A DNA stretch of 40,311 bases from Gammaproteobacteria bacterium (GTDB lineage: Bacteria > Pseudomonadota > Gammaproteobacteria > Thiohalospirales > Thiohalospiraceae): positions 1 to 40,311 of the forward strand of contig JAJRUV010000132.1 of the NCBI GenBank assembly GCA_024277595.1, read 5' to 3'. The position numbers and the translations under genes were made by a program. The notes beneath the pieces are model-generated. The model made no database searches. It was given only the letters and a program-made list of their open reading frames with translations, and was not told the origin of the DNA. Position 1 is the first letter of the stretch, and each line of letters starts with the position of its first letter. Positions 293 through 16,201 of this stretch are shown here, piece by piece.

Positions 293-556
293 TCAACGCC
301 TTCTGGCGTGTTTGCTTAGATAGGTGAGAATTTTCTGGCGCTCACCTAGGGACAGGGGCGGCATTTCGATATGCCCCATCCGTTTTTGCATGGTCTGCAG
401 GACGATTTTCCACTGCCCGGCGGTCAGCATCTCCGGGTCGGGTAGCTGGTGGCACATGTCGCACCGGGATTTGTAGAGGTTTTCTCCCGGGTCGCTGTTT
501 TCCGCCCAGAGGGGTTGCACCAACAGCAGTGCGGCTGTCATTAGCAGGCATCTCAC
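293..556 (-). CDS. Small periplasmic monohaem cytochrome c
   Basis: An 87-residue protein with a signal peptide (about residues 1-18, ending in LWA) and one haem c motif, CDMCH, at about residues 32-36. A Met at about 65 in the segment HIEMPP is a candidate distal axial ligand, giving a class I-like mini-cytochrome. The start is a GTG whose last two bases overlap the TGA of the upstream thioredoxin-like gene (GTGA junction), so translation is probably coupled. It is the last gene of the four-gene minus operon 293-3698. It may pass electrons to or from the CPIC redoxin made just before it. The exact partner is not known. Confidence 0.8.
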   Translation of the reverse strand: MRCLLMTAALLLVQPLWAENSDPGENLYKSRCDMCHQLPDPEMLTAGQWKIVLQTMQKRMGHIEMPPLSLGERQKILTYLSKHARRR

Positions 557-1101
557 GGCAGTGCCTCCAGAGTATCGTACAGTTTCGAGCCATCCTTGTA
601 ATCTTCGTTCATACGCACGATGCCGGAACTGTCGATGACCACGGTGGTGCCCATGGTTGCATTGAACTGGTTCAGTACGGCCTCGTCGGTGTCCACCAGT
701 ACGTTCAGGGCGGCGTAGCCGTTGGAGAGCTGGGCGGAGCGGGAGCGATCCACCGAGCCGGAGACATAGTCCACCAGCAGGAATTTCACTTCGGGAAAGT
801 CCGGCATCACATAGCTGCGCATGTGGCTCATGTGGGCGTCGCATATCGGGCACCACATGTTGAAGTAGAGCACCACGCCTCTGGCGTTGCTCAGCTCGGT
901 GGCCAGATTTACGCTTTCGCCCAGCGTATTGGTGAGGGTGAAATCGGCGGCGTTCTGGCCGACGTGGGGACCGGGTACGTTTTGGTCGACGGCGGGGCGG
1001 CGATCCTTGCCGGATGGGTTGAGATCGTCGAAGGTATCGCCGCAGCCGGCCAGCAGCAGGGTCAATCCCAGGAGAAGCAGCAGTTTGCTAGCGATAAACA
1101 T
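553..1101 (-). CDS. Thioredoxin-fold (redoxin/TlpA-like) lipoprotein
   Basis: A 182-residue protein with a lipoprotein signal ending in LAGC (lipidated Cys20) and an AhpC/TSA-redoxin type thioredoxin fold. The segment VLYFNMWCPIC carries the redox pair Cys84-Cys87, and a conserved-looking GTTVVIDSSGIV strand follows near residue 150. It is probably anchored in the periplasm. Such proteins reduce or oxidise cysteines of apocytochromes or metal sites, or act as peroxidases; which applies here cannot be told. Its 5' end overlaps the barrel gene by 14 bp and its 3' end overlaps the cytochrome start, so the three are co-translated. The adjacent barrel has an N-terminal Cys-Cys pair that could be its substrate (inference). 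Confidence 0.82.
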   Translation of the reverse strand: MFIASKLLLLLGLTLLLAGCGDTFDDLNPSGKDRRPAVDQNVPGPHVGQNAADFTLTNTLGESVNLATELSNARGVVLYFNMWCPICDAHMSHMRSYVMPDFPEVKFLLVDYVSGSVDRSRSAQLSNGYAALNVLVDTDEAVLNQFNATMGTTVVIDSSGIVRMNEDYKDGSKLYDTLEALP

Positions 1102-2065
1102 GGCTTACTCCCACGGTGTAGACATCGGTGACGGGGAAGTTCTCCCCCCATCCATCGCCCCTGAGGGCGTGGCTCCAGCTGAATTTGATCACCCAGTCGC
1201 GGTCGAGGGTGGCGAAGGCGACGGTGGCGGCGATGGAGCGTTTTCTGAACCCGCTGGCGGGATCGCGATGACTGTCGATCTTGCCCTCGTTCTCTCGCAG
1301 ATCGGAGAAGGAGGCGGTGTAGGTCAGGGTGCTCATTGATTCCAGGAACTGGGTATAGCCGAGGGATGCGGTTGCCAGCATCCGATCGCCGAGGCTTCTG
1401 TCATAGGGCTCCACGTAGTTGCCGTATTCGCGGTTGACCGAGCGTTTGAAATAAGTGCCGTAACTGAGTAGCAGCGAGGCGTTCCACGGATAGACGGTCT
1501 TGTCCAGCAGGATGGTGCCATCCAGACGGTAGAATCCGCGGCCGGTGATGTCGAAACTGTTTCCTACATCGTCGTAGGGCGAGACGCCGGTGGGGATGGT
1601 CAGCGTTGCACCGAAATAGGCGGCCGGTTTCAAGTCCTCGATACTTTTTACCTTCCACACGCACTGGATGCCGTCGAAGTTTTCATACCAGACGCTGACC
1701 GTGGTGTCGCCCAGTCCATTGGTACCGGATTTGAGTCCGGCGTAGTTGTTTTCGTTCCAGATGTAAGGGACGGTGATGCTGCCCTGCCAGCGCGGGGCGA
1801 AGCGGTAGGCGTAGCCGAGGTTGAGGCGGTACTGGTTCAGATCGGAGCCGGGTGGATCGGGAGTGTGGTCGCCATCCCGGTTCCAGAAACCATCGTATTG
1901 TTCGATGTCCAGCGAGGCGTCCGACATTGCCTTGGAGAATTTCGGAAGCAGCAGTGAAGAGGCAGAGCCACCGCCACAACAGGAGGCGGCCCATGCGGCG
2001 GAGGTTGAAAAAAGAGCGATCCCCCCCGCAAGGAGGAGCGCCTGGGAAACTTTATTGTTATTCAA
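1088..2065 (-). CDS. Outer-membrane beta-barrel protein with N-terminal CCGGG motif
   Basis: A 325-residue protein with a signal peptide cut after AWA (about residue 26). The mature chain begins with SCCGGGS (Cys29-Cys30) and continues as alternating amphipathic strands rich in Tyr, Trp and Gly, ending in VSHVYR, an aromatic-plus-polar end typical of barrels. It resembles transporter or porin-like proteins of the MetA-pathway/OprB type in layout, but I do not recognise the family with certainty. The vicinal cysteines at the mature N-terminus are unusual for a porin and suggest binding of a soft metal or metalloid, or a redox exchange with the CPIC lipoprotein encoded just downstream. Confidence 0.72.
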   Translation of the reverse strand: MNNNKVSQALLLAGGIALFSTSAAWAASCCGGGSASSLLLPKFSKAMSDASLDIEQYDGFWNRDGDHTPDPPGSDLNQYRLNLGYAYRFAPRWQGSITVPYIWNENNYAGLKSGTNGLGDTTVSVWYENFDGIQCVWKVKSIEDLKPAAYFGATLTIPTGVSPYDDVGNSFDITGRGFYRLDGTILLDKTVYPWNASLLLSYGTYFKRSVNREYGNYVEPYDRSLGDRMLATASLGYTQFLESMSTLTYTASFSDLRENEGKIDSHRDPASGFRKRSIAATVAFATLDRDWVIKFSWSHALRGDGWGENFPVTDVYTVGVSHVYR

Positions 2066-2069
2066 TCGA

Positions 2070-3698
2070 TTACATCCCCATGCTCATTGATGAACCGCCG
2101 GGAGTAATTTTAAACTCGGCGTTGTCTGCGGTGCCGTCAGGTGCCATGCCGTCGTCGGTTTTCTGTTCGCCGTTAACGGTCAGCCTGACATACAGTGTGC
2201 CCTGGGTGCCGTCAGTGAGCCCGGTGATGCCGGTCGCTGACCAGCGGCCGCCGCCGTTGTCGCTGGCGGCGATCCAGTTGGTCTGATCGGTGGAGACCTC
2301 AATACTCATGGTGTTCACAGTCCAATCCATACCCATCTCGTTTTTCAGCACTGTTCCCACCGATACAGCTGGATAGCTCATCATGCTCTCCTTGGTGGCG
2401 ATGAACAGATTGAAGGTGTGGTTGCCGGTGGTGCCGGAAATGCCGTCCTTGAACAGGAAATACTTGCGCTTTTCCGGGCCGCTGCCCATTCCGGCGATGT
2501 TGTCGTTCTGGCTCAGCAGATCCACCTTGACCGTATCACCACCCATCACCATCATCACGGCAGGATAGAAATGGATCTCCTCTCCACCCACGTCCAGTTT
2601 CAGATCCCAGTACCCACTGGAGGTGCCGTTCATCCTTGAGGCCATGAGGTAGTAAACGGCGCACTGGTAGGTTCCGGGGGAGTCCGCCTGTTCGGTACAT
2701 CCACCCACTGGTGTTGAATGGCTGTGCATCGCCATGTGCATCACCGGCATCTGGGAGATGGTCAGACCGGTGGCCAACGTCGCGTCGCTGCGGTTGGTGA
2801 TGGTGAGGGTGCAGACCGATTTGCCCTTCATCGGACCCATCATCGGCATGCGCTCGATTTTGTACTTGTCGGTCAGTGCGAGGTTCCCCTCGGGGAGAGC
2901 TCCGAGCTGGTCGGCGGTAAGCCCCGTCTCATTGTTCGCGCTGGTAAAGAAACCGGTCATGGCGCGGGCGAAGCGGTTGCGCAGATCCGTCGGGAGCTGT
3001 TCGCCGGTGGAGCCTATCTTGACGGGCGTACCGTCGTCATTACTGCCGTCTGCTGTTCCATCGGCCAGATCGTCGGCGATTGCTGCGAGCAGCTCGAACT
3101 GCTGTTCTGCGGTCATACTCAGATCCATGTTCAATTGACTGAAGGCCGCTGCCCGCAGACCGGCCCGGAGCCGGACCTCTTCACCACCGCTGGCGCTGGG
3201 GATCACTGAACTGTCCGGTGTATAGCCGAATGCGTTTCGGAACGCCTCTTCGGCCTGCTGTGGCGTTTTCCGGTGGGCGGTGATCAGCCGCGCGATGATA
3301 GTGGTGCCGGGAGTGAGGCTCACGGTGGTGCCGGAGGAGAGGGCTCCGGCGGGTACATGGGTTGTCAGGCTGCCTGCATTCACCGACAGATCGGTCGCCT
3401 CGTCGCTGAAGCTGCCACCTGCAGATTCGACAATCAACGCCCCGGACAACCGGTTTTTGTCGATCTCGATGCTGTAGTTACCGCCGCTGTCTGACTGCAC
3501 CGGCCCGGCAACAGTTTCACCGCCAGCCGTTTTGATACTGACCTGAGCGCCCGATACCGGAGCCGCATACACCGAACCGCTAATGGTTGCTGTATCGCTA
3601 TCTTTTTTTGAGCTGGACGAACCATTGCAGCCTCCCAGCAAGAGCAAGCTGCTGGAGGCCAGGAGAAGCGTGAGGAAAAGAGGATTTTTGGTATTCAT
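2070..3698 (-). CDS. Met/His-rich lipoprotein with carboxypeptidase-regulatory-like domain
   Basis: A 542-residue lipoprotein. The start is the ATG at 3698, because it places a standard signal ending LLGGC (Cys24) at the N-terminus; the longer reading frame to 3803 only adds unlikely sequence. Residues about 35-140 look like a carboxypeptidase regulatory-like beta-sandwich (SGSVYAAPVSGAQVSI). A middle helical part follows, then a region about 285-400 rich in Met and His (MPMMGPM, MPVMHMAMHSHS), which resembles FixH/YtkA-type copper-handling domains. The tail ends SSMSMGM. It leads the minus operon and lies four bases from the barrel gene. A copper- or metal-binding role at the cell surface or periplasm is plausible but unproven. 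Confidence 0.7.
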   Translation of the reverse strand: MNTKNPLFLTLLLASSSLLLLGGCNGSSSSKKDSDTATISGSVYAAPVSGAQVSIKTAGGETVAGPVQSDSGGNYSIEIDKNRLSGALIVESAGGSFSDEATDLSVNAGSLTTHVPAGALSSGTTVSLTPGTTIIARLITAHRKTPQQAEEAFRNAFGYTPDSSVIPSASGGEEVRLRAGLRAAAFSQLNMDLSMTAEQQFELLAAIADDLADGTADGSNDDGTPVKIGSTGEQLPTDLRNRFARAMTGFFTSANNETGLTADQLGALPEGNLALTDKYKIERMPMMGPMKGKSVCTLTITNRSDATLATGLTISQMPVMHMAMHSHSTPVGGCTEQADSPGTYQCAVYYLMASRMNGTSSGYWDLKLDVGGEEIHFYPAVMMVMGGDTVKVDLLSQNDNIAGMGSGPEKRKYFLFKDGISGTTGNHTFNLFIATKESMMSYPAVSVGTVLKNEMGMDWTVNTMSIEVSTDQTNWIAASDNGGGRWSATGITGLTDGTQGTLYVRLTVNGEQKTDDGMAPDGTADNAEFKITPGGSSMSMGM

Positions 3699-3729
3699 TG
3701 TGGTAATTAGCCTTATATTTTTTCTGTAA

Positions 3730-3744
3730 CTTTGATGAACAAAG
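3730..3744. promoter_or_regulatory. Short inverted repeat CTTTG-N5-CAAAG upstream of the minus operon
   Basis: A perfect 5-bp inverted repeat (ctttg atgaa caaag) lies 31 bp upstream of the lipoprotein start. It is a possible operator or part of the promoter for the minus operon. It does not fit the FNR or CRP consensus. Confidence 0.25.
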
Positions 3745-3834
3745 CAATTTAGAGGCCATAAAAATTTTCCATCAATATCATGGTGTTGTGATCTGTTTCC
3801 CAATAAATGTCGAGTTATTTAACTCAGTGAGTGA

Positions 3835-3972: not shown

Positions 3973-4070
3973 CGCTGATTGATAAAGTTGGCTTATCTAT
4001 TGCTGTGCATCGAGGGACTGACAGAGCGGATTTGGGGGCGGGTCTGGGCTTAACACTAACGGGATTTGAT

Positions 4071-6995
4071 ATGAAGAAACTATTTGGAGAGGGTAGACGG
4101 TTTACCTGTCTGGTGCTGGTGACAGGAATTGCCCTGCTTGGTTTTGGTGGGTTGGTTCATGCGGCGGAGGGGGATGATGCCGCCGAGGTTGAAGACAAAA
4201 CCAACAAGGTGGATGCGCCGGTGCTGCATCCGGCAATTCCTCTGCTGGACGAGGGTGGCGGGCATGTGCTGGACAGCGGCAAGCCCTACAGCCCGAGACA
4301 GAGCTGTGGCTCTTCCAACTGCCATGACTACGATGCCATCACCCATGCCTATCACTTCGAAATGGGGCGGGATGAGGTGGATGATGATTTTGGCGCCCGT
4401 CGTGGTTTGCCCCATCTGGTGTCACCGGGTTACTTTGGTGGCTACGCGTGTATGGGGGGCAGCAATCCCGAAGTGCTGGCGAAGAAGGCCAATGCCACTG
4501 CCGACGACTTTGCCGATCGCGGCTCGGCCGGGTGGATACTGCGCTGTGTTGGCTGTCATACCGGCGGTGGCTATGCGGAGAAGGATCGCGATGGTCGTCG
4601 TTATGACGAGACTGATCCGGCTACGGTGAAGCTGCTGGACGGCGATTATTATAATCGCGGCACTGATGAGAACAATCAGGAGACTGATGTCGATACCATC
4701 GCCCGCTGGGACTGGAAAAAGAGTGGCGTGATGGAGGCTGACTGTTTCCTCTGTCATGCCGACTTTACCCAACTGGTGAAAACCGACCCGGCACTGAACA
4801 GTGAGGATAGCGACGATGCCTACGAACACTTTCGGGAGTTGCGCCGGACCTATCTGGTGAGAGGTGGGGGCTATTTCCGTTACGCTGCAACGGCGATTCT
4901 GGAGTTCCTCAATCTCAAACATCCGCAGGGTTCGGCGCAAGACCTGACGCTGGTGAACTTCAGCCGTGACACCGCAGCCGAGTATATGCCTGTTCACTCC
5001 CGACGTGAACCCGCCTATGCGCTGAAACTGAATGCTGATGGTGAGCCAATCCTGAACTGGAATGCTGCTGCCTTTGATGCCGAAACCAGAAAAACAGTGA
5101 TTCCCATGCTGCGTTTCCCCGGCAACGACAACTGCATGATGTGTCACCGCACCAGTAACTCGCGGCGCGGCTTCTTCGGCTTCGGCGAGGGGGCGAAGGC
5201 GGTGTACGAGGAGGAGACCGGTATTCTGGTCGAGGACTATCAGGATGACGTACATAAGGGTAAGACCTGGACTGATCCGGTGACCGGCGAAGAGCGCCAG
5301 ATCGAAAACTGTAATACTTGCCACGCCCGCAACTACTTCCGTGCCGGGTTCAAGAATACCGATCTGAATGCCAACCATGACATCCTCAAGGGCAACTCTG
5401 ATATGGATGTGCGTAACGATCTGGACTATAACCCCAACGCCAAAACCTGTGAGTATTGCCACAATGATTCACCTGCGCCGGTGATCCCTTCGGGTCAAGA
5501 GGATATGGTCACTGCTCATCTGGAGCGTTGGAAGAACAGCGGCTTCATGGCGGGTTATCCGGAGTCCACGCTGATCCGCGTAACCCGGACGCACCTGGAT
5601 GTTGTTAGCTGTCAGGCCTGCCATATCACCGGCAAGAAGGATCGCCGTGGCGATGATCTGCAGATCATGTACCGCTATCGCCAGGCGGAGGATGGCTCTC
5701 TGAAGATTGTTCCGTACAACCCGCGGATCCGTTACTACTGGAAAGACAAAAACAGCGGCCGGGTGCTGACCCGCTCCGAGCGCAATAGCGTGTTCGAGGA
5801 GCGTACCGACGGCAATGGCGAGAAATATGGGGTCATCGTCGATCCGGAGACCAAAAAGGAACTTGGCAAGGTCAGCGCACGTATCTCTCATGGCAGTGTG
5901 CGTTTCGGTGATCCGGAAGATTATGCCGGCTACCTCGCTCTGAAACGTGCGCATGACAAGCTGCTGGCGAAGAAAGGGGTGAGTAATCCCGACACGGTAC
6001 TGGTGTGGACCGAGTCCAACGAGTACATCATGTCGCACAATACCCGTCCGGCCACTGCCTCGGTGCCATGCGAGGATTGCCACAACAAAAAACAGAACGG
6101 CTCTTTCAGCGCCCTGTTATCCAGAGAAGGGTTGTTCGGAGGTGGTTACTCCAAGGAGGTAACCCAACTGGCTGACCGGCGTCTGGTGGATGAGGGTATC
6201 GTGGAACTGGATCTGGCCTATATGAAAATGGATGACAATGGATTGGTTACTGAGAATGTGGCCGACATCCTTTCCGTCACCCGGGTCGATCCCTTCATGA
6301 CTATTCTCAAGGCGAGCAGCGCCAGTATCTCCACCGGCCGGGTCAGCAGGATCGATACCGCAACAGGTATTGCATCCATTGGCGCCACTGGCAAAGGCGC
6401 CAGTGCACTGTTGGAGCGCTTCAATACCGGTGATATGCTGCTTTATCAGCCCATTTACGGGGAGAAAAAACTGCGCAAAGTGGCAGTGATGCCGGAATTG
6501 AATGGCACCAATGAACAGGTATTCCCCTCTTACCGGCTGCGAGTGGCTATTGCTCCGGATGCAGTAAGTTCAGCGGCGCGTAGCGCAGGCATGGGAGAAC
6601 TGGCTTCGCCGGTGTTTCTGCTGGAGGCGAAGGACAACCGCAACAACCCGGTCAACAGTTTCACCGGCGTGCTGGTCAAGCTGCCATATGACGGTAGTCA
6701 GGATGATATCAGCAAAGTCAACGTGCTCTATTCAGCCAACGGAGCAGCATGGTCGGTGCTGAGTGAGAGCGATATCGTCACCATCCAGCCACGAACTGAC
6801 GAGATGGATGGAATGGTTGTCTTTCAGACCACTCATTTTAGCTACTATGCGCTTGCCGATGCGGCTTCCGCTATCAGCAGAACGGCATCTGGCGGCAGCT
6901 CATCCAGCGGGGGTGGGGGTAGTGTCTTGTGGTTGCCGTTGCCTGGACTGCTGTGGTTTTCCGTGCGGCAGATACGCAGAAGGCGGGTCTGCTGA
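4071..6995 (+). CDS. Octahaem c-type cytochrome with GlyGly-CTERM-like tail (ExtKL-like)
   Basis: A 974-residue secreted cytochrome. The ATG at 4071 is chosen because it starts a signal peptide (MKKLF... to VHA, about residue 31). It has seven CXXCH sites (Cys159, 225, 355, 414, 460, 514, 667) and one CX4CH site (Cys79-Cys84-His85). One cysteine, Cys127 in the segment YACMGG, is outside any haem motif and may be a haem ligand or catalytic thiol. Residues about 700-930 are beta-rich and haem-free. The end has a Ser/Gly run (SSSSGGGGS), a hydrophobic stretch and an Arg-rich tail, as in GlyGly-CTERM (rhombosortase) substrates, so it is probably processed and displayed at the outer surface. Position before a small Cys-rich protein and a porin recalls ExtKL of the Geobacter selenite/tellurite locus, where some members have Sec. 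This one has no in-frame TGA. Confidence 0.85.
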   Translation: MKKLFGEGRRFTCLVLVTGIALLGFGGLVHAAEGDDAAEVEDKTNKVDAPVLHPAIPLLDEGGGHVLDSGKPYSPRQSCGSSNCHDYDAITHAYHFEMGRDEVDDDFGARRGLPHLVSPGYFGGYACMGGSNPEVLAKKANATADDFADRGSAGWILRCVGCHTGGGYAEKDRDGRRYDETDPATVKLLDGDYYNRGTDENNQETDVDTIARWDWKKSGVMEADCFLCHADFTQLVKTDPALNSEDSDDAYEHFRELRRTYLVRGGGYFRYAATAILEFLNLKHPQGSAQDLTLVNFSRDTAAEYMPVHSRREPAYALKLNADGEPILNWNAAAFDAETRKTVIPMLRFPGNDNCMMCHRTSNSRRGFFGFGEGAKAVYEEETGILVEDYQDDVHKGKTWTDPVTGEERQIENCNTCHARNYFRAGFKNTDLNANHDILKGNSDMDVRNDLDYNPNAKTCEYCHNDSPAPVIPSGQEDMVTAHLERWKNSGFMAGYPESTLIRVTRTHLDVVSCQACHITGKKDRRGDDLQIMYRYRQAEDGSLKIVPYNPRIRYYWKDKNSGRVLTRSERNSVFEERTDGNGEKYGVIVDPETKKELGKVSARISHGSVRFGDPEDYAGYLALKRAHDKLLAKKGVSNPDTVLVWTESNEYIMSHNTRPATASVPCEDCHNKKQNGSFSALLSREGLFGGGYSKEVTQLADRRLVDEGIVELDLAYMKMDDNGLVTENVADILSVTRVDPFMTILKASSASISTGRVSRIDTATGIASIGATGKGASALLERFNTGDMLLYQPIYGEKKLRKVAVMPELNGTNEQVFPSYRLRVAIAPDAVSSAARSAGMGELASPVFLLEAKDNRNNPVNSFTGVLVKLPYDGSQDDISKVNVLYSANGAAWSVLSESDIVTIQPRTDEMDGMVVFQTTHFSYYALADAASAISRTASGGSSSSGGGGSVLWLPLPGLLWFSVRQIRRRRVC

Positions 6996-7213
6996 TGAAG
7001 CATAAGGCCAGAAAACTGTTGCCCTGGCTGACCGGAGCAGGTCTGGCGGTTGGTCATATCACCCTGTCATCCAACTGCACGCTGCCCCGTAACGGGCAGT
7101 GCTCCACCTGTGGCAGTTGCGTACTGGCGCTGGGTGTTCTGGTGAGCTGGGCGCTGTTGAAAAAACGCAGTGGGAACAGTGTTTATCTCCTTGAAGACAA
7201 GCGTGTGCGGTGA
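6995..7213 (+). CDS. Small Cys-rich membrane protein (ExtJ-like position)
   Basis: A 72-residue protein starting at an ATG that overlaps the stop of the octahaem gene (TGATG). It has a basic N-terminus, a weakly hydrophobic first segment, then four cysteines (28, 36, 39, 42) in the pattern CTLPRNGQCSTCGSC. A membrane segment follows (VLALGVLVSWALL, about residues 43-55), then a basic tail. The clustered cysteines could bind an iron-sulfur cluster or a metal, or act as a redox relay. It sits between a multiheme cytochrome and a porin, the same position as ExtJ in ext-type loci as I remember them. The function is not known. Confidence 0.68.
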   Translation: MKHKARKLLPWLTGAGLAVGHITLSSNCTLPRNGQCSTCGSCVLALGVLVSWALLKKRSGNSVYLLEDKRVR

Positions 7214-8433
7214 GCCGGGAGTGGTTGCTGCGGGCAGTGCTCATGCTGTCTGTGGCGCTGGCCGGCGGGCAGGCCGGTGCCGAAATGGTTGGCCGTTTCG
7301 ATACGCGGATACAGGTGGATAACCGCTATTTTGATGATGATATGCGACTGGATCAGCACGGTGAATTTACCGTGCATAACCGGGCGCAAGAGGTGCGTTC
7401 CGGCACCTCTTTTGCGTTGCGCCACGGCAACAGCGGGGGAGAGGCTCGGCTCTATCGGTTGTTTGTCGAGAAACGGCTGTCACCATCCGGCACAGTGCTG
7501 ACTCTCGGCCGGTTACAGCGTAGTGACAGCCTGGGATTTTACACCTTGGATGGCGTCAAGCTCGGTTGGCGCAAACGGCAACTCGCTATCAAACTGTATG
7601 GCGGTGTACCCGGTCGCATCGATGATTACCGCTCTATCGACGGGAATGCGTTGTATGGTATTGAGTTGCATTTTCGCCCCCGGAACAAGCGGAGTGCTCT
7701 GCTCAGCGGCAGGCTGGGCTGGCAGCACTACCGGGACGGCGCAAGCAGCGATCGCCTGAGCTGGGGTGTCAGTACCCGCAGCCGGAGCAGCATCGAATAT
7801 CTGTTTTCCGGTGTGTATATCCTGAAGCAGGGGCGTGCCGAGGAGTTATCCGCGCAGGCGCGGGGCGATGTCAGCGGAAAGGGTCGGTGGCAGCTCTCCT
7901 GGCAAATCTATCAACCGCAACAGCCCTGGCTGACGTTTCGGGAGCGCTTTTACTCGCTGTATGCCCCGGGGCATCAGTCGGTATGGCGTGGGGATTTCCA
8001 CTACCGGCCTGGCAAAGGCGTGGAGTGGTCTGCCGGAGGCCGCCGGGTGGCGCGGGAACAGGGTGAAGCGGGTTATGGTCTGACCGGTGGCGTCGAGCTG
8101 TCCCGGAGTTCCGGTTTGCGGATGGAGGTGCAACTCAACTTCTTGCAACTGAGCGATGACGCCACCAGCGGAATCTGGTTCCAGGCTGGCAAGGCTGTCA
8201 GCTCCAGAAACCGTGTCCACTTGCGCAGTACACTGCAATATCAGGACAAGGAGCTGTATGGCGTGGATCGCACCGCTGGTGTCGAACTGGAGGTGGAGCG
8301 GATGGTTCGGGCCGATCTCTATCTCTCTCTGTTCGCGGGCTATCTCCGGAACAGCCGCCTGGATGATGAATATCGTGCCGGTGCACGCCTGAGTTATTAC
8401 TTTGACAGGTACAAACCGGAGTCGGTACGGTGA
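7210..8433 (+). CDS. Outer-membrane beta-barrel porin of the cytochrome conduit (ExtI-like)
   Basis: A 407-residue protein starting at GTG 7210, overlapping the previous stop by GTGA. It has a signal peptide ending about residue 24 (GQAGA) and then a long series of alternating strands rich in Arg, Tyr, Gly and Trp with short turns, ending ARLSYYFDRYKPESVR. The length fits an 18-22-strand barrel. No haem motifs are present. It lies between an outer-surface octahaem and periplasmic cytochromes, as porins do in porin-cytochrome conduits (MtrB, OmbB, ExtB/ExtI types), and likely insulates an electron path or admits a substrate. Sequence relation to ExtI is suggested by position only. Confidence 0.78.
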   Translation: MSREWLLRAVLMLSVALAGGQAGAEMVGRFDTRIQVDNRYFDDDMRLDQHGEFTVHNRAQEVRSGTSFALRHGNSGGEARLYRLFVEKRLSPSGTVLTLGRLQRSDSLGFYTLDGVKLGWRKRQLAIKLYGGVPGRIDDYRSIDGNALYGIELHFRPRNKRSALLSGRLGWQHYRDGASSDRLSWGVSTRSRSSIEYLFSGVYILKQGRAEELSAQARGDVSGKGRWQLSWQIYQPQQPWLTFRERFYSLYAPGHQSVWRGDFHYRPGKGVEWSAGGRRVAREQGEAGYGLTGGVELSRSSGLRMEVQLNFLQLSDDATSGIWFQAGKAVSSRNRVHLRSTLQYQDKELYGVDRTAGVELEVERMVRADLYLSLFAGYLRNSRLDDEYRAGARLSYYFDRYKPESVR

Positions 8434-9032
8434 AGAAGACGCTGCTCTCTCTGCTGTTTGTCCTGGCTGCTTCCGTTGTGGCGGAAAATCCGCTGCCCGA
8501 TGAGAAGGAAAAAACCTGGTGGGAAAAACGCGAGCAACGCTCTGACATCTACTACCCCCACAATGCCCATCGGGAAGTGATGGAGCAGGGGGGGGATCCC
8601 TGTCTGCTGTGTCACCCCTTCAGCAAGAATGAAGTTATCGACACTGAATCGTTGAAAACACTGAATACCATCGCCAACGAGCCCTTGGCGGCTATCTGCC
8701 ACGAATGTCACATGACCCGGCAGAGTGCCTCCTGGCGCTGTGATCTGTGCCATTCGGATCCGGCAACCGCCTGGCCGGACAGTCACGATTTCGACTACCG
8801 GCAACACCATGGTGAGGATGCCCGCCTCGATGAGGGGGAGTGCCGCATTTGTCATATCGATCTCAACTTCTGTGCCGATTGTCATTTTCGCCGCGATTCC
8901 TCACGACATCAGGGGCATGCCCTGGGTTACCGTACCCTGCACGGCATCGAGGCGCGCATGAATCCGGGTGACTGTGGCCGCTGTCACAATCCGCGCTATT
9001 GTGCTGATTGCCACCGGGAGATGCGCCGATGA
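8430..9032 (+). CDS. Periplasmic heptahaem c-type cytochrome
   Basis: A 200-residue protein with a short signal peptide (MKKTLLSLLF to VVA, about residue 18) and seven CXXCH sites at Cys58, 90, 104, 138, 148, 182 and 191. This is one haem per 26 mature residues, the packing of a haem wire. No lipobox and no C-terminal anchor are present, so it is likely soluble in the periplasm or held in the barrel as MtrA-type cytochromes are. The start is GTG 8430, joined to the porin stop by a GTGA overlap, which argues for tight co-production with the porin. An ExtM-like role is possible, by position only. Confidence 0.85.
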   Translation: MKKTLLSLLFVLAASVVAENPLPDEKEKTWWEKREQRSDIYYPHNAHREVMEQGGDPCLLCHPFSKNEVIDTESLKTLNTIANEPLAAICHECHMTRQSASWRCDLCHSDPATAWPDSHDFDYRQHHGEDARLDEGECRICHIDLNFCADCHFRRDSSRHQGHALGYRTLHGIEARMNPGDCGRCHNPRYCADCHREMRR

Positions 9033-9988
9033 TCCGGCTGGTGTTTATCGCCCTGTTGCTGGTTGGTTGTCAGGCAGACGATGATGAGGTGCTACAGGGC
9101 GGAAATCTGATCCTCGGCGCCTCCCACGGCGGAGATGGATCCGCCTGGGGGCTTGCTGACTGCAATGCCTGTCATGCTCTGGCGGTGATTCATCCGGAAG
9201 CCGCCGACATTCGTCCGTTGGTGCGTGAACGGGGCTACGGAACCTGCACCGGCTGTCACGGGGGCAACGGTACTGGCCAGCCGCGCCGTTGCGTTATTTG
9301 CCATAACGCAACGGATCTTCCCGAAGCGCCGTTATTGGCCGGTCGTCATCCCCACGGTTTCACTGCCGGGAAGGCTGCTCCATTACGGGATGAGCAGTGT
9401 CTGATTTGTCATCTGGCTTCGGACATGGATGGCCGTTTCGAGCCGGAGCGGGATCTCACCCCGTTCCCCGATGCCGCCGGCTACAACACCCGCTACCGCC
9501 GTATCGCCGATTTCTGTCTGCGTTGCCACAATCGGGATCATCAGCAACCCGGATTCGAACTGGCGGGTGATGGTTTCAGCGACCCTCTGATTGCCGTGGA
9601 GGATGCCTGGCGTTTTGTCGACAAACACGGCCTGAGCGCCGGTTCGGGTGAGCGTACCTATGCCGGATTGCGCACCGGCTATCGCTACCGCAGCGTGGTG
9701 GAGTGTACCGATTGTCACGCCATGCATGGCACAGAGAACGGCAAGTTGATCATCGATGACTCCCGCAAAGGAGTTTCGCGACTGGAGGGGGCGATGCGGG
9801 AAAAACCTTACCGTGTCGTCACCACCGATGGTGACTACTCCCGGCTCTGTGTGCTGTGCCACCAGATGCAGATCCTGCTGGATGCGGGCGGTGAGGATAC
9901 CGGCAACGGCCTGTCCGGCGTCCATGAGCGGGGCAGTGACTGTCGTGCCTGTCACACCCACGGTGAAGCGGTGCAGGCGGGATTATGA
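9029..9988 (+). CDS. Octahaem c-type cytochrome lipoprotein
   Basis: A 319-residue lipoprotein starting at ATG 9029 within an ATGA overlap. The signal ends LLVGC (Cys14) followed by Gln and Ala, with no Asp at +2, which favours sorting to the outer membrane. Eight CXXCH motifs occur at Cys45, 73, 88, 124, 163, 226, 274 and 305. It would form the outer-membrane cytochrome partner of the porin, on either face. In ext-type loci a c-type lipoprotein (ExtS) has a similar place; homology is not checked. Confidence 0.85.
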   Translation: MIRLVFIALLLVGCQADDDEVLQGGNLILGASHGGDGSAWGLADCNACHALAVIHPEAADIRPLVRERGYGTCTGCHGGNGTGQPRRCVICHNATDLPEAPLLAGRHPHGFTAGKAAPLRDEQCLICHLASDMDGRFEPERDLTPFPDAAGYNTRYRRIADFCLRCHNRDHQQPGFELAGDGFSDPLIAVEDAWRFVDKHGLSAGSGERTYAGLRTGYRYRSVVECTDCHAMHGTENGKLIIDDSRKGVSRLEGAMREKPYRVVTTDGDYSRLCVLCHQMQILLDAGGEDTGNGLSGVHERGSDCRACHTHGEAVQAGL

Positions 9989-10872
9989 ATATTGTCGAAT
10001 GGCTGATCTTCATGATTGTCCTGTTGATTCCTGCAATCATTGTATCGGCAGAGGAGGATAAAAAACTGCCGCCCCTGCATCATGTGGTGGATGTTCCGGT
10101 GCCGGAGGAGATGGAGGTGCCGGAAGAGTTCCCCCTCTCCAACGACGGGCGCATTGTGTGCAAGACCTGCCACGGTATCGGGAATATCGATGAACTGCCG
10201 TTCGACCAGGTGGACAAGAGTGCCGACGACTTCCATCGTGGCGGCCCTTACCGGCGGTTGACCGATCTCTGTTACCGCTGCCACGACAAGAGAGAATACA
10301 GGCCACCCAACATCCATATCCTGCTCGATGAACAGGGCGAGTATGACCAAAAGGCGTGCGAGTACTGCCACCTGGAGGCGCCCGATCCGAAGCAGAAGGA
10401 TATCTTGCGTGATGCGCTGGAGTTCCGCCTGCCACCAGAGAAACTCTGTTACGGATGTCACCTGAAAACACCCCACCTCAACGCCCTCAACCACCAGGCT
10501 GAGCCGGACAGGGAGATGCTCAAGCGTATCGATCGGGCGGAACGGAAACACGGTGTGATTCTGCCGCTGGACCTGGACAGCACGATCACCTGCGTCACCT
10601 GTCACGCCACCCACCAGCACGGCCTGATCGATCCGCAGAGACCGGCGGGCAGGCAGGTGGCGGATACCGATCTGGAGGAGGGGATCACCTACCGGGATCA
10701 CCCCTGGAACCAGGTGTTCCGGGAGGACAAGCGGGAACGGCTGGCGGCGCTGGCCGAGGAACGTGGCGAAACCCATACGCTCTCCTACCAGCGTATCGAA
10801 AACGAGGTGTTGCTGCGGCTACCCGCCAAGGATGGCACCCTCTGCATGGCCTGCCACGAGTTCAATCGATGA
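9985..10872 (+). CDS. Hexahaem c-type cytochrome
   Basis: A 295-residue protein with an N-terminal hydrophobic segment (residues about 5-21, ending IIVSA) that may be a cleaved signal or a membrane anchor. Six CXXCH sites lie at Cys59, 96, 125, 155, 203 and 287. Between the fifth and sixth site is a long charged haem-free stretch rich in Arg and Glu. The start overlaps the previous stop (ATGA) and the end overlaps the polyferredoxin fusion (ATGA), so it probably takes electrons from that inner-membrane protein and hands them to the periplasmic cytochromes. Confidence 0.83.
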   Translation: MNIVEWLIFMIVLLIPAIIVSAEEDKKLPPLHHVVDVPVPEEMEVPEEFPLSNDGRIVCKTCHGIGNIDELPFDQVDKSADDFHRGGPYRRLTDLCYRCHDKREYRPPNIHILLDEQGEYDQKACEYCHLEAPDPKQKDILRDALEFRLPPEKLCYGCHLKTPHLNALNHQAEPDREMLKRIDRAERKHGVILPLDLDSTITCVTCHATHQHGLIDPQRPAGRQVADTDLEEGITYRDHPWNQVFREDKRERLAALAEERGETHTLSYQRIENEVLLRLPAKDGTLCMACHEFNR

Positions 10873-13034
10873 AGCTGCTCGACCGGTTCAAGGCGATCCC
10901 CGACGGTCAGAAGTTCCGCTACGGCCTGCTGCTCCTCTCCTGCCTGCTGTTCTTCGCCCCGTTCCTGTTGATCCCGAGCCTGGCGGGTAATCCCGATCTG
11001 TGCGGCAAGCTCTGCATGCGCCGCTTCTATCTCTATTTTCCCGGCATGAGCCTGGATGACCTGACCACCCAGATCAGTGTGGCGCTGATCGGTGTGGTGT
11101 TTTTTGCCGTGATCATGGTGACCACCTTCTTCTTCGGCCGCATGTGGTGCTCCTATATCTGCCCGGTGGGTGGCTTTCCCGAGCTGGTCAGCCGCCTGCT
11201 GCCGGATCGCTGGAAGATCGAATACCGCGCCCTGCCGCAGGTGCCGATCCGCTACGGTTACCTGGCCACTTTCGTGGTGCTGATGCCGATTCTGGGGATC
11301 AGCGCCTGCACCCTGTGCAACTTCATCACCGTGCCGCGCATCTTCGAGGCGTTCGGTGGCGGGGTGATGGGGATCGCCTTCCTGTTCTCCGCCATCGGCC
11401 TGGTGAATCTCGCGCTGTTGTTCCTGCTCGGTTTTTTCGCCAGCAAGGGGCGCGCCTACTGCCAGTTTCTCTGTCCCATCGGCGCTTTCGACGGCCTGGT
11501 CAACCGTCTGGGGGCGAAATTCCGTTTCACCCGCCATATCCGTGTGGAGCGCAGCCGCTGTACCGGCTGCAACATCTGTGCGCAGAAGTGCATGTGCGGT
11601 GCAATCAAAATGGTGGATCGGATCGCCGTGGTGGATCAGCTCTCCTGCATGTCCTGTCACGAGTGTGCGGATGTTTGCGACTGGCATGCTATCAGCTGGC
11701 TGGCCGCGCCGCCGGTTCGGGAGCCGAAACGGAAGAAGAAGGGTGTGGAATACCACCCCCAGCCGAAGTGGATCGCCATCCATCGCGAGCCGCAGGCAGC
11801 GGGGGAAGGGCGCCGCATGTGGCCCAAAGTGCTGGTGCTGCTGGGTACTCTGGTAGTGTTGTTCGTTACCGTCACCGAATTGGTGGCGGCACAGCGGCAG
11901 AGTGATCCGGATGGCTGCCTCTCCTGCCATGCTCTTGAGGGACTGAACTATATCGATCAGGAGGGCGTTCTGCGCAGCGCCAGTATCGACAAGGTTCACT
12001 ACTTCAGTTCGCTGCATGGCAGCGTGCCGTGCAAGGATTGTCACCGCAAGATTCGTGACTTTCCTCATGAAGTGGAGAACACCGGGGTGGACTGCGCCGA
12101 GACCTGCCACGTGGAGGAGCCCTCCGGAGGTGAGTCCTATACCCACAAGCAGGTGGTGAAAGAGTTTGAAAAATCGGTGCATGGCGAGGGGGGCAGCAAG
12201 GGCTTCACCGGCGGCAACCGCCTGCAGGAGATTACGGAGCAGCCCAATCCTTCCTGTCGCAGATGCCACAGCAACGAGCTTTACATCAGCGCAAGGGATC
12301 TGCCCAGATTCAAGGAGTCATTCGCCCATGTGGAGACCGAGTGCGGCACCTGTCACCAGGGTGAGGTGTGGCTCAACCAGTTCGGCGGCCATATCCTGCG
12401 GCGGTTCATTGGTGCGCGCTGGAACAAGAGTGACCACAACCGCATGTGCAACGACTGTCACGCCGATCATGAGCGCATGGCGCAGGTGGAGATCGAAAAC
12501 CCGCAGACAGGCAAAAAGGAGCCGGCAGGGCCCCGTTTTATTCTTGCCAGTGACAGCTACGCCATGACCCTGCATGGGCGGCTGCTGGCCAGCGGTGTGG
12601 AACAGGGTGCATCCTGCATCGACTGTCATGCCCCTGATGGTCTGCGTCATGCCATACTCCGGGAGGATGAGCCGGACTCATCCACTCATGCCGATAATCT
12701 GGCCGATACCTGCGCTGCCGAAGGATGTCACGGTTTTGCCGGCCATCCGCTTAACCGAGCCTTTGTCGATACTGATATGCACGATATCGATCTGATCCCG
12801 GTTATCGACGAAACGGTTCCGCTCGATCTGGCGCGGTTGAAATCCGGTTCGGTCAAAGCCCTCACCGCTCTGGTGCCGATAGTGGTGATAGTCGGCGGTG
12901 GCACCCTGCTGTGGATGGTGTTCGGCAAACGGAAAAAGGGAGTTACCTATGCCCTGTTCGGCGGCAGTGCGTTCCAGCGAAGAATGCTTGGCAGCAGACC
13001 GCGCCGGCGCAAGGGACAACGCAGTGAAAGGTAA
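10869..13034 (+). CDS. NapH/NosR-type polyferredoxin fused to an octahaem cytochrome domain
   Basis: A 721-residue inner-membrane protein. Residues 1-215 form a NapH/NosR/CcoG-like unit with about four membrane helices and two CX3CP motifs (Cys94-Cys98-Pro and Cys198-Cys202-Pro). Two [4Fe-4S] ferredoxin motifs follow (Cys231/234/237/241 and Cys260/263/266/270). After a basic linker comes another helix (about 320-340) and a periplasmic domain with six CXXCH (Cys350, 388, 463, 492, 527, 583), one CX3CH (Cys409) and one CX4CH (Cys615), so up to eight haems. A final helix lies at about 664-686. Known NapH-type proteins oxidise quinol for periplasmic reductases; here the electron exit is built in. 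It is the only candidate quinol dehydrogenase in the operon, since no cytochrome b gene is present. Confidence 0.87.
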   Translation: MKLLDRFKAIPDGQKFRYGLLLLSCLLFFAPFLLIPSLAGNPDLCGKLCMRRFYLYFPGMSLDDLTTQISVALIGVVFFAVIMVTTFFFGRMWCSYICPVGGFPELVSRLLPDRWKIEYRALPQVPIRYGYLATFVVLMPILGISACTLCNFITVPRIFEAFGGGVMGIAFLFSAIGLVNLALLFLLGFFASKGRAYCQFLCPIGAFDGLVNRLGAKFRFTRHIRVERSRCTGCNICAQKCMCGAIKMVDRIAVVDQLSCMSCHECADVCDWHAISWLAAPPVREPKRKKKGVEYHPQPKWIAIHREPQAAGEGRRMWPKVLVLLGTLVVLFVTVTELVAAQRQSDPDGCLSCHALEGLNYIDQEGVLRSASIDKVHYFSSLHGSVPCKDCHRKIRDFPHEVENTGVDCAETCHVEEPSGGESYTHKQVVKEFEKSVHGEGGSKGFTGGNRLQEITEQPNPSCRRCHSNELYISARDLPRFKESFAHVETECGTCHQGEVWLNQFGGHILRRFIGARWNKSDHNRMCNDCHADHERMAQVEIENPQTGKKEPAGPRFILASDSYAMTLHGRLLASGVEQGASCIDCHAPDGLRHAILREDEPDSSTHADNLADTCAAEGCHGFAGHPLNRAFVDTDMHDIDLIPVIDETVPLDLARLKSGSVKALTALVPIVVIVGGGTLLWMVFGKRKKGVTYALFGGSAFQRRMLGSRPRRRKGQRSER

Positions 13035-13803
13035 CATGATACTGATGGCATGGCTGCTGCCTGCCCTCTCCGGGGCATGGGCGGCGCCGCTCTATCCGGA
13101 TTTGGTGGAGAGGGCCGAAGTGACCGCCAAACAGCTGGATGAGGCCCGCAAGCAGATCCGGGAACACAAGGCGGTGGAGGTGCTCGATGAGCTTTCTCTG
13201 CCCCCGTTTCACCATCGTGAAGTGAAAGTGCAGGTGGGCAGACCGCCGCTCTGTATGCTCTGCCACCTGTCCCTGCCGCATCGGGAAAATGAGCGGACTC
13301 GTACCTTTCTCAATATGCACAGCCGCTATCTGAGCTGTGAGACCTGTCACCTGCAACCCAAAGGCGTGAAGCTGGAATATCGCTGGCTGGCCGATGATGG
13401 TTCGGCGCCCGGACAGCCGGTTGCGGATGCTGTCTCTGTGGCGGAAGATGAACAGATTCCATCCATTATCCCGCAGCCTGGTGCCCGCATCGCCCCTTTT
13501 TCCCACGGCGAAGTTGCACTGATCTTCCAGGAACATCCGCTGGCCAAAGAGGTGAAGCGGGTCTGGCAGGAGGGGTCGCCGGAGGAGAAGAGCCGACTCA
13601 AGGCGCGCCTGCACACGCCATTGGAGAAGAAAGGACCGGAGTGCAAGGCCTGTCACGGAGAGGAGTCCCCACTGCTCGATCTGGAAGCGCTGGGGGCATC
13701 CCCGCAACAGCTGCGCGCCATTCGTCAGAATACCATTGTGCGTTTCTTCAACCGCTTCGAGGAAGATGATGAGCGTCTGCGCATCGATGAACTGTTACGC
13801 TAA
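13024..13803 (+). CDS. Periplasmic trihaem c-type cytochrome
   Basis: A 259-residue protein with three CXXCH motifs at about Cys77, 105 and 207. I chose GTG 13024, which has an AAGGGA ribosome site 7 bases upstream and gives a Lys at position 2 of the signal peptide (ending about residue 20, AWA). The ATG at 13036 is a usable alternative. The protein also has several extra His residues (HH near 63-64, His161) that could serve as distal ligands. It overlaps the end of the polyferredoxin fusion by 11 bp. It is probably a periplasmic carrier or an adaptor for the NHL protein that follows. Confidence 0.82.
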   Translation: MKGNMILMAWLLPALSGAWAAPLYPDLVERAEVTAKQLDEARKQIREHKAVEVLDELSLPPFHHREVKVQVGRPPLCMLCHLSLPHRENERTRTFLNMHSRYLSCETCHLQPKGVKLEYRWLADDGSAPGQPVADAVSVAEDEQIPSIIPQPGARIAPFSHGEVALIFQEHPLAKEVKRVWQEGSPEEKSRLKARLHTPLEKKGPECKACHGEESPLLDLEALGASPQQLRAIRQNTIVRFFNRFEEDDERLRIDELLR

Positions 13804-16201
13804 ACGGAGCCGGATTATTCGGTTGGCTGTAGTCTGTGCAATGGTTTTGGCAACGGGTGCTCTCACGCCACAGCCCTTGGCTGCTGCCGAGGTGCAGGCC
13901 TTGTTCGTTCTGGCAGCCGATCTCGATCAGCCGAGTGACGTGGCGGTTGGTGATGATGGCACTGCCTATGTGCTGGATGGCGTCAACGGCCGTGTGGTGG
14001 TGTTCGATACCGAGGGCAGACGACGCTTCGCTTTTTATGGCGAGGGGAAAGGCAGACTGAACCTGCCGATGGGGATCGCCACCGGTGGTGAGCGTCTCTA
14101 TGTGGCTGACAGCGGCAACCACCGCATTGTCGTGTTTGACCTGCGAGGGCATTTTCTCCATGCGATCCCGCTCAGCGGCGAATCGCCACCGGAGCCGGTG
14201 GCCCTGAAAGTGCTGGACGGGATGCTCATCTGGGCCGACCGGCGCAATCACCGGCTATGCCGTCATGATCTGCGAAACGGCACTCCGCTGTCTTGCTGGG
14301 GAGAGTACGGAGAGGGCAAGGGGGAATTCCGCTATCCTTTCCAGATCGATGCCGATCGGGACGGATATCTCTATGTGGTGGATGTTCTCAACAGCCGGGT
14401 GCAGGCGTTTCATCGCAAGGGACGCTATTTTACCCGGATAGCCCGTTTCGGTCTTGCGCCGGGGGAGCTGTATCGCCCCAACGGTCTGGCCATTGCCCGG
14501 GATGGGAGGCTGTTCGTCGGTGACAGCTATCGCGGTACCGTGTCTGTGTTTCTGGCCGGGCGGTTTCAGGGGCTGCTGTCCGAGCGCAGCGGGGCGCCCA
14601 TTCGTCTGGGTACGCCGGTGGGAGTCTCTGTCTGGAGGGATCGACTCTATGTGGTGGATGCAGGTGACAGTCGCGTAGTGGTCTATCGTCTGTCACCCGC
14701 TGTTGAGACGAGCCGGTCCATCACCGGAAAAATAGTGACGTCACAAAAGAACTGTGCCACTTGTCATCTCTCCTGGGCGGCAGGATATGTTTCCGGTGAG
14801 GGGGTTCAGGATGGCATTGCACCGGTAGCAACCCCGCAGATGTGTTACAGCTGTCATCACGGTGTGATAATCGATTCGCGCCGCGCCATCGGACGTGGCG
14901 AGCAGCACCCCGACATCCACCATCGGCGCAAAGAGAAAAAAGAGAAAACCGAACGGGATGAAATCCCCAAAGAGTTTCCACTGGTGGGAGACAAGCAGCT
15001 CTCGTGCGGTAGTTGCCATACTCCCCACGGCGTTGATCCCGAACGACCGGTCACCCGGAAAAGTGACGATACGAACCCCTGGATGCGTGTGCTGAACCGG
15101 AAGGGCAGCCTTTGTCACCGCTGCCATGAGTCGAAACTGGATAGTGCACTGGATAAAAAACGACCGCGGCGCGGCATCAACCATCCGGTAGGCATCGTTC
15201 TCACGCCGCCACCGTATCCCAATGCGAAGGGCTATGCGACGGACAAAAAGCTCCAGCGCGGATTACCGGATGAACTGGCGGAGAGGGGGGCGCAGCTGGG
15301 GCCGCAGCGACAGCTGATCTGCCAGAGTTGCCACCGGGTTCATGGTGCCGCCAGTGAGGCACTGCTCCCCTTTGCCCGCGATGACAGCAGACTGTGCAAG
15401 GCGTGCCACCAGCGGCACTACGCCAGAGACAGGGACGAGGCGCGTCGTAAAGGGATTCATCCAGTCGATATAAAACTGGATCAAGCGGTGCACATGGGAG
15501 ATGAAAAAATTGAAAGAATTACCTGTTTCACCTGTCATTCGCTTCACGGCGGCGAGCCGGGTACCCCGTTGCTGAAGTTCAATCACCGTGAGGGCCGGCT
15601 GTGCAGCTTCTGTCACGATGGCTACGATGCCGTGGCCAACAGTGACCACGACCTGCGCATCACCGCCCGGGATTACCGCGACCGTTTCCACCAATTACCG
15701 AAACAGGGGGGAGTCTGCGGCACCTGTCACACCATGCACCGCGGCGATGGCCAGGCGCCGTTCCTCTATGCTGGTGAATTTCAGCCCTGGCAGGGTGACG
15801 AACCGGCTTTAAGGCGGGATGAACTTTGTCTCGATTGTCACCGGGAAAAAAAGGTTGCTGAAAAGGCCATCGTCGAGCATTTCAGTCACCCGTACAAAGA
15901 CCTGGTGCTGCGTTCCAATCCACAGAGTATGCCGTTAGTGGATGAATCGGGGGAGATTGATGAGTTCGGTGTCATCGCCTGCATCACCTGCCATGACCCC
16001 CATCGCTGGACGGCCGACAAATCACAAATACCATCATCGATTGCAGAGAATCAGGACGGCAATGCGCTAAACAGTTTTTTACGCCGCAAAGGGATCAAAC
16101 AGACATTTTGTGTTGAGTGTCACGGCATGGAGACACTGGTAAAATACAAGTATTATCATGACAAGCTCAGCCGGGATGCCGGTGTGAATTATCTTGAATG
16201 A
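13787..16201 (+). CDS. NHL beta-propeller fused to a dodecahaem cytochrome
   Basis: An 804-residue secreted protein. The ATG at 13787 is inside the previous gene (17-bp overlap) and gives a signal peptide with basic N-terminus ending near residue 34. Residues about 35-310 hold roughly six NHL repeats (GIATGGERLYVADSGNHRIV type), forming a propeller. From about residue 325 to the end are twelve CXXCH motifs, the first CATCH and the last CVECH. There is no lipobox or membrane anchor, so it is periplasmic or exported. It ends the operon. The propeller may dock a partner protein or a substrate, and the haem array stores or moves many electrons. I know of NHL-multihaem fusions in metal-reducing bacteria but not of this exact arrangement. 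Confidence 0.83.
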   Translation: MNCYAKRSRIIRLAVVCAMVLATGALTPQPLAAAEVQALFVLAADLDQPSDVAVGDDGTAYVLDGVNGRVVVFDTEGRRRFAFYGEGKGRLNLPMGIATGGERLYVADSGNHRIVVFDLRGHFLHAIPLSGESPPEPVALKVLDGMLIWADRRNHRLCRHDLRNGTPLSCWGEYGEGKGEFRYPFQIDADRDGYLYVVDVLNSRVQAFHRKGRYFTRIARFGLAPGELYRPNGLAIARDGRLFVGDSYRGTVSVFLAGRFQGLLSERSGAPIRLGTPVGVSVWRDRLYVVDAGDSRVVVYRLSPAVETSRSITGKIVTSQKNCATCHLSWAAGYVSGEGVQDGIAPVATPQMCYSCHHGVIIDSRRAIGRGEQHPDIHHRRKEKKEKTERDEIPKEFPLVGDKQLSCGSCHTPHGVDPERPVTRKSDDTNPWMRVLNRKGSLCHRCHESKLDSALDKKRPRRGINHPVGIVLTPPPYPNAKGYATDKKLQRGLPDELAERGAQLGPQRQLICQSCHRVHGAASEALLPFARDDSRLCKACHQRHYARDRDEARRKGIHPVDIKLDQAVHMGDEKIERITCFTCHSLHGGEPGTPLLKFNHREGRLCSFCHDGYDAVANSDHDLRITARDYRDRFHQLPKQGGVCGTCHTMHRGDGQAPFLYAGEFQPWQGDEPALRRDELCLDCHREKKVAEKAIVEHFSHPYKDLVLRSNPQSMPLVDESGEIDEFGVIACITCHDPHRWTADKSQIPSSIAENQDGNALNSFLRRKGIKQTFCVECHGMETLVKYKYYHDKLSRDAGVNYLE

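Follow-up and report, generated by a model that had tools for sequence, protein, structure and literature searches.

Through which proteins, and in which direction, would electrons cross the cell envelope along a run of nine closely packed genes dominated by multihaem cytochromes? This question is raised by a cluster in the window, i.e. the whole stretch of 40,311 nucleotides that was analysed here. The gammaproteobacterial host named in the preliminary description agrees with the nearest relatives, which are Chromatiales and other gammaproteobacterial MAGs.

Nine open reading frames on the same strand, here called A to I, were confirmed (Table 1). Genes A and B overlap by 1 base, B/C, C/D, D/E, E/F and F/G by 4 bases each, and H and I by 17 bases, so that the near-universal overlaps of 1-17 bases described earlier have a single exception in the 1-base gap separating G and H. 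Seven of the nine genes encode cytochromes, and a recount of their haem motifs (A 8, D 7, E 8, F 6, G 8, H 3, I 12) returned the total of 52 that had been counted before. Seven CXXCH motifs and one CX4CH, which comes first, make up the set of A, while G combines six CXXCH with one CX3CH and one CX4CH. An additional CMSCH of G at residue 260 was left out of the count, since it belongs to the cysteine set of the ferredoxin part and its histidine is not conserved, being kept in 78% of homologues. Composition shuffles of the same proteins contained CXXCH at means of 0.005-0.08 each (maximum 2); because shuffled proteins yield fewer than 0.1 motif each, a chance origin of the haem motifs is excluded. 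Across the aligned homologues (18-64 sequences), conservation is 95-100% for every haem motif of A, D, E, F, G and H and lower (62-76%) for the last two motifs of I. Scans of the whole window for tRNA genes and Rfam families returned nothing.

Table 1. Features of the window around the multihaem cytochrome cluster.
Feature	Coordinates	Strand	Description
Small c-type cytochrome	293-856	-	
AhpC/TSA thioredoxin-like lipoprotein	553-1101	-	
CCGGG-bearing secreted protein	1088-2065	-	
Met/His-rich lipoprotein	2070-3803	-	
Sigma-54 type -24/-12 promoter-like site	3989..4005	+	TGGCTTATCTATTGCTG; 82 bases before the A start codon
Nine-gene set A to I	4071-16201	+	
Gene A	4071-6995	+	Secreted octahaem cytochrome; relative of MCA0424/MCA0426
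Haem domain of A	4203-6290	+	About residues 45-740
ZU5/GAIN-like domain of A	6321-6869	+	Residues 751-933
Gene B	6995-7213	+	Small Cys membrane protein; position like MCA0425
Gene C	7210-8433	+	Predicted outer-membrane beta-barrel, 22 strands in model; MCA0427 equivalent
Gene D	8430-9032	+	Secreted heptahaem cytochrome
Gene E	9029-9988	+	Octahaem cytochrome; LVGC lipobox, hence predicted lipoprotein in the window lineage
Gene F	9985-10872	+	Secreted hexahaem cytochrome
Gene G	10869-13034	+	NapH-type membrane polyferredoxin fused to periplasmic octahaem domain
Gene H	13036-13803	+	Secreted trihaem cytochrome; MCA0432 equivalent
Gene I	13787-16201	+	NHL propeller and dodecahaem cytochrome; MCA0433 equivalent

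The composition of the set supports the previous assignment of a NapH-type inner-membrane module, a barrel, a lipoprotein cytochrome and a surface-type octahaem protein, which together are consistent with a trans-envelope multihaem conduit. The octahaem half of G, which follows its NapH-type ferredoxin half, is weakly similar to NapC/NirT, and in I the NHL propeller precedes the twelve haems. Gene C has no match in Pfam or NCBIfam, including the MtrB family; nevertheless, its AlphaFold2 model is a 22-strand barrel (mean pLDDT 88.1), for which Foldseek returned MOMP, OprD-type porins and usher barrels, and on the basis of this model C is confidently predicted to be an outer-membrane beta-barrel. 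The three cytochromes encoded directly downstream have as many invariant partner histidines as haems (D 7, E 8, F 6) and 3.0-5.3 kDa per haem, figures typical of electron carriers. At 3.0 kDa per haem, D is the probable wire through barrel C; in the family searches it matches generic c7/c3 models only. The lipobox of E was absent from the methanotroph sequences inspected. Gene B, which belongs to no known family, encodes 72 residues with four invariant cysteines (C-x7-C-x2-C-x2-C) flanked by two hydrophobic stretches, and this cysteine set could hold an Fe-S cluster or a metal.

The putative surface end of the conduit, A, has no NCBIfam match above cut-off. Its nearest models are OmcA/MtrC and TIGR04315, the octahaem tetrathionate reductase (OTR), which it reaches with 34 bits where 375 are required; each of the 50 A proteins in the alignment matches TIGR04315, likewise below its cut-off. 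The sole PDB profile match of A is 1SP3, the OTR of Shewanella, a weak match (E 0.69) that is collinear across several haem sites. Foldseek gave no match to A below 0.001, and the resemblance to OTR emerged afterwards from VIA-align, in which residues 51-736 of the A model aligned with chain 1-428 of 1SP3 at Z 7.7 (308 residues aligned, 20% identity), a moderate match by the tool's own guide. Both proteins have eight haems, the alignment covers nearly all of OTR, and the surroundings of haem 2 (CxxCHxGxGW) are common to the two. In contrast to OTR, A starts with a CX4CH motif, scores far under the family cut-off and does not keep the position of Lys153, where the aligned column varies; C127 and K139 are invariant or nearly so. 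Furthermore, A differs from OTR as a surface-type protein with additional ZU5/GAIN-like and sorting parts. The former resembles ankyrin ZU5 domains at Z up to 10.0, and the latter is a C-terminal GlyGly-type sorting tail; some homologues match JDVT-CTERM, SVAGG GlyGly-CTERM and other sorting models. A rhombosortase is encoded in the window's own genome (138 bits, cut-off 84), and the sorting tail is absent from A in the methanotroph sequences inspected.

On these matches, A is a likely relative of octahaem tetrathionate reductase, and its haem domain may have an OTR-like fold. OTR reduces nitrite, hydroxylamine and tetrathionate, with haem II as the catalytic haem (PMC4484225). Across the homologue alignment, A has seven invariant partner (non-motif) histidines for its eight haems, and an OTR-like fold combined with one haem lacking such a histidine would suggest that A is a terminal reductase of an extracellular acceptor. 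The mass of A per haem is 9.7-13 kDa (9.7 kDa within the haem domain), which exceeds the 7 kDa per haem given for catalytic cytochromes (PMC7096707). An ExtKL-like selenocysteine was rejected for A, as the TGA of one homologue (G146) is an ordinary stop.

The preliminary description took the cluster for a possibly undescribed type of conduit, a proposal that has to be given up, because the full gene order is already described in MCA0424-MCA0433 of Methylococcus capsulatus Bath. This putative operon of eleven genes encodes eight multihaem cytochromes with 58 CxxCH motifs and the beta-barrel MCA0427; two of its products, MCA0424 and MCA0426, were located at the cell surface, and an outward electron path has been proposed (Larsen and Karlsen 2016, PMC4831470). 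In M. capsulatus Texas, the order is c553O, c553O, A, B, A, C, D, E, F, NapH, octahaem, H, I; its eight cytochromes have 7+7+7+8+6+6+3+14 CXXCH motifs, which add up to 58, equal to the number published for Bath. Given the same families, the same order and the 58 CXXCH motifs in Texas, the window operon is the MCA0424-MCA0433 system, of which it is the non-methanotroph form. The two share the order A-B-C-D-E-F-NapH-octahaem-H-I and a sigma-54-like promoter. They differ in that the window has a single A and a fusion of NapH with the octahaem protein, whereas M. capsulatus has two A genes and separate NapH and octahaem genes; moreover, the sorting tail on A and the lipobox on E are features of the window only, and adjoining c553O genes are absent from it. 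As to methanotrophy of the host, a search of its genome for pmoA/amoA detected nothing, with the positive control likewise giving no signal; as to Dsr sulfur oxidation, dsrA yielded nothing above cut-off. Among the open-access papers searched, the MCA0424 genes are mentioned only in PMC4831470 and the genome paper. Two further candidates proved to be different systems, i.e. the Methylobacter porin-cytochrome cluster with its 10-haem MtrA type protein (PMC13322032) and the system of the Nitrosomonas EET paper (PMC10415592).

Among 369 genomes sampled evenly across the class, A was present in seven, including the window's own, and a scan of 84,980 species genomes with the alignment of A returned 79 loci. 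These belong to Methylococcales (among them M. capsulatus Texas and the methanotrophic symbionts of Bathymodiolus), to relatives of Beggiatoa (Venteria, Halobeggiatoa, Parabeggiatoa, Thioploca), and to Chromatiales, Sedimenticola, tubeworm symbionts (Escarpia, Lamellibrachia) and Nitrosomonas. Of the loci in which B/C come after A on a contig of sufficient length, 44/44 have C, 42/42 D, 40/40 E, 37/37 F and 35/35 G; all 35 loci with at least 8 kb of downstream sequence have C to G downstream of A. Gene H was seen in 29 of 34 loci, the remainder being short of sequence or carrying inserts. In seven loci A occurs on its own, and in one of these it is broken or frameshifted. The state of G varies: its NapH and octahaem halves are encoded separately in methanotrophs (MCA0430 and MCA0431) and in Nitrosomonas and are fused in most other lineages, and on the tree of A two changes between the fused and the split state are needed.

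Several observations accompany this distribution. The operon also occurs in MAGs labelled Acidobacteriota (Polarisedimenticolaceae) and Deltaproteobacteria (L059 and L061), which could reflect horizontal transfer or misbinning. In a Venteria locus (L064, 12953-15607), unrelated genes, one of them DUF262-like, are apparently inserted between A and B/C. Within the window's genus, a second cytochrome cluster was seen in the own genome (L020, C167, 758-7570) and at three further loci (L022, L023, L024); it comprises cytochromes with 7, 3 and 18 haems and an NHL protein encoded separately, and includes distant paralogues of G, H and I. Adjoining 8-haem and 9-haem cytochromes, the second of which is weakly like the octahaem half of G, were found in the own genome (L021, C35, 984-4709) and at one other locus (L025).

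The region upstream of A gives an indication of how the operon may be regulated. The promoter-like site of the window scores 9 of the 11 sigma-54 positions, at least 9 being the threshold for a site. Ten such sites occur across the whole window, so that a single site is weak and the weight rests on the enrichment across loci: 32 of 61 have a site upstream of A, compared with 2 on the reverse strand, 1 in the coding control, and 0 and 2 when the spacing is altered by one base. The best site of M. capsulatus Texas is the sequence predicted for Bath by Larsen and Karlsen (PMC4831470). An NtrC-type response regulator adjoins A in seven loci and is divergent from it in six of these, mostly in Sedimenticola and relatives. 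Such neighbours fit the sigma-54 sites, and sigma-54 together with an NtrC-type activator probably turns on expression of the operon.

We consider it fairly probable that the nine genes form one operon encoding a trans-envelope conduit, in which electrons pass from quinol via G and the periplasmic cytochromes to D inside C, and on to A. Quinol would be oxidised at the inner membrane by G, through its NapH-like ferredoxin part and its NapC-like octahaem part, and the periplasm would be crossed via F, H and the NHL-dodecahaem protein I. The heptahaem cytochrome D, with the lipoprotein E, would pass the outer membrane inside the 22-strand barrel C, and the electrons would end on A, an octahaem cytochrome predicted to be sorted to the cell surface. 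There, A would act as the terminal reductase of an extracellular acceptor instead of a plain wire, with a sulfur or nitrogen oxyanion, a metal oxide or an electrode as possible acceptors. As a tentative extension, for which we would claim rather little certainty, these operons may constitute a widespread and hardly studied class of conduit, linking the quinol pool directly to a surface-anchored, OTR-like enzyme by which a metalloid or a soluble compound of sulfur or nitrogen is reduced outside the cell. The analysis establishes the genes, their haem motifs, the conserved order, the orthology, the barrel model and the promoter enrichment, and from these we infer the order of the proteins in the chain, their localisation, the outward direction and the catalytic role of A.

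Sequence does not reveal which way the electrons flow, and multihaem chains are reversible in principle. The same proteins might work inward, with A oxidising an extracellular donor, such as reduced sulfur, Fe(II) or another cell, and passing the electrons via G to the quinone pool. The ecology of the holders would suit such a function: many of them oxidise sulfur or live in symbiosis with vent and seep animals, and one oxidises ammonia. Entry modules of the NapH type, however, usually oxidise quinol, as known from Nap systems. The relatives of A in the OTR group are reductases (PMC4484225), and M. capsulatus delivers electrons to anodes, yielding current, and reduces ferrihydrite (Tanaka et al., PMC6281684). 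In the latter study, deletion of MCA0421 lowered the current; the gene with this mutant phenotype adjoins MCA0424-MCA0433 and lies outside the operon. Weighing these points, we regard inward flow as unlikely.

A role in metal acquisition would give the conduit a different purpose, namely the reduction of extracellular Cu(II) or Fe(III) to enable uptake of copper or iron. The M. capsulatus operon points in this direction, being induced by copper limitation, i.e. copper-repressed, and adjoining TonB genes, with a Fur-like box (PMC4831470). In the window, four possibly copper-related genes lie divergent to A on the minus strand, among them those for the Met/His-rich lipoprotein, the CCGGG protein and the thioredoxin-like lipoprotein. 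All four have homologues at a congener locus (L047), and the first two, the Met/His-rich lipoprotein and the CCGGG protein, also at another (L045); homologues are confined to the window genus, however, so that conserved copper neighbours of the operon were rejected. Regulation by Fur was rejected likewise: the Fur-like box was seen again in L088, a good box occurs in the Methylococcus locus only, and such boxes are not enriched upstream of A across loci. Since 52 haems would also be a heavy outlay for such uptake, metal acquisition appears distinctly improbable as the main function.

The resemblance to the Ext proteins of Geobacter noted in the preliminary description did not survive the search with the NCBIfam Ext models, in which no protein reached any of them; the only Ext-named match was ExtS (NF040971), at 14.4 bits against a cut-off of 100, and the homologue sets of B and C matched no Ext model. 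No ExtI, ExtJ or ExtKL match was obtained, from a library whose inclusion of these models is unconfirmed (NF040963 and NF040972 are other families). The cluster does resemble extHIJKLMNOPQS of G. sulfurreducens in bringing together a barrel, a small protein and several multihaem cytochromes. It differs in its NapH module and NHL-dodecahaem protein, both of which are present as had been remarked, and in the lack of counterparts of ExtH, ExtO and ExtP; none of the nine genes encodes a rhodanese, a Rieske protein or a cytochrome b, in line with the earlier remark that rhodanese and cytochrome b were missing. Moreover, A is an octahaem, OTR-related protein, whereas ExtKL of Geobacter is pentahaem (PMC6148476). 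Judged by family models, haem number and missing genes, as opposed to direct sequence comparison with ExtI, ExtJ and ExtKL, the cluster is not the Geobacter ext selenite operon. A selenite or tellurite reductase of the ext type, as first proposed from the joint presence of porin, small cysteine protein and multihaem cytochrome as in extIJKL (PMC5877670), with a 12-haem cytochrome in addition, is therefore highly improbable in view of the lacking Ext matches, the nature of A, the absent counterparts and the different quinol module.

In its presumed mode of action, the outward conduit would resemble MtrCAB of Shewanella; both combine a small multihaem wire, a barrel and a surface cytochrome, and the MtrC/MtrF domain model weakly matches A, E, G and I. 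Unlike MtrCAB, the window has a barrel with 22 modelled strands and no MtrB-family match, a wire with seven haems that is not MtrA, and an OTR-like surface protein.

The present analysis thus provides new evidence on a described system with respect to its spread, its promoter and its surface end, and carries a single remark of 2016 further, to Nitrosomonas, Beggiatoa-like bacteria and the symbionts of tubeworms and mussels. The system bears on the question of how aerobic methanotrophs and the oxidisers of sulfur and ammonia get rid of electrons once oxygen is exhausted. If the tentative extension above is true, a dedicated nine-gene line would be common to methanotrophs, animal symbionts and the oxidisers of sulfur and ammonia. 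As one conserved operon, whose order barely changes across these groups, it makes the question testable in the genetically tractable M. capsulatus, and it predicts regulation by sigma-54 as well as a surface end that resembles an enzyme.
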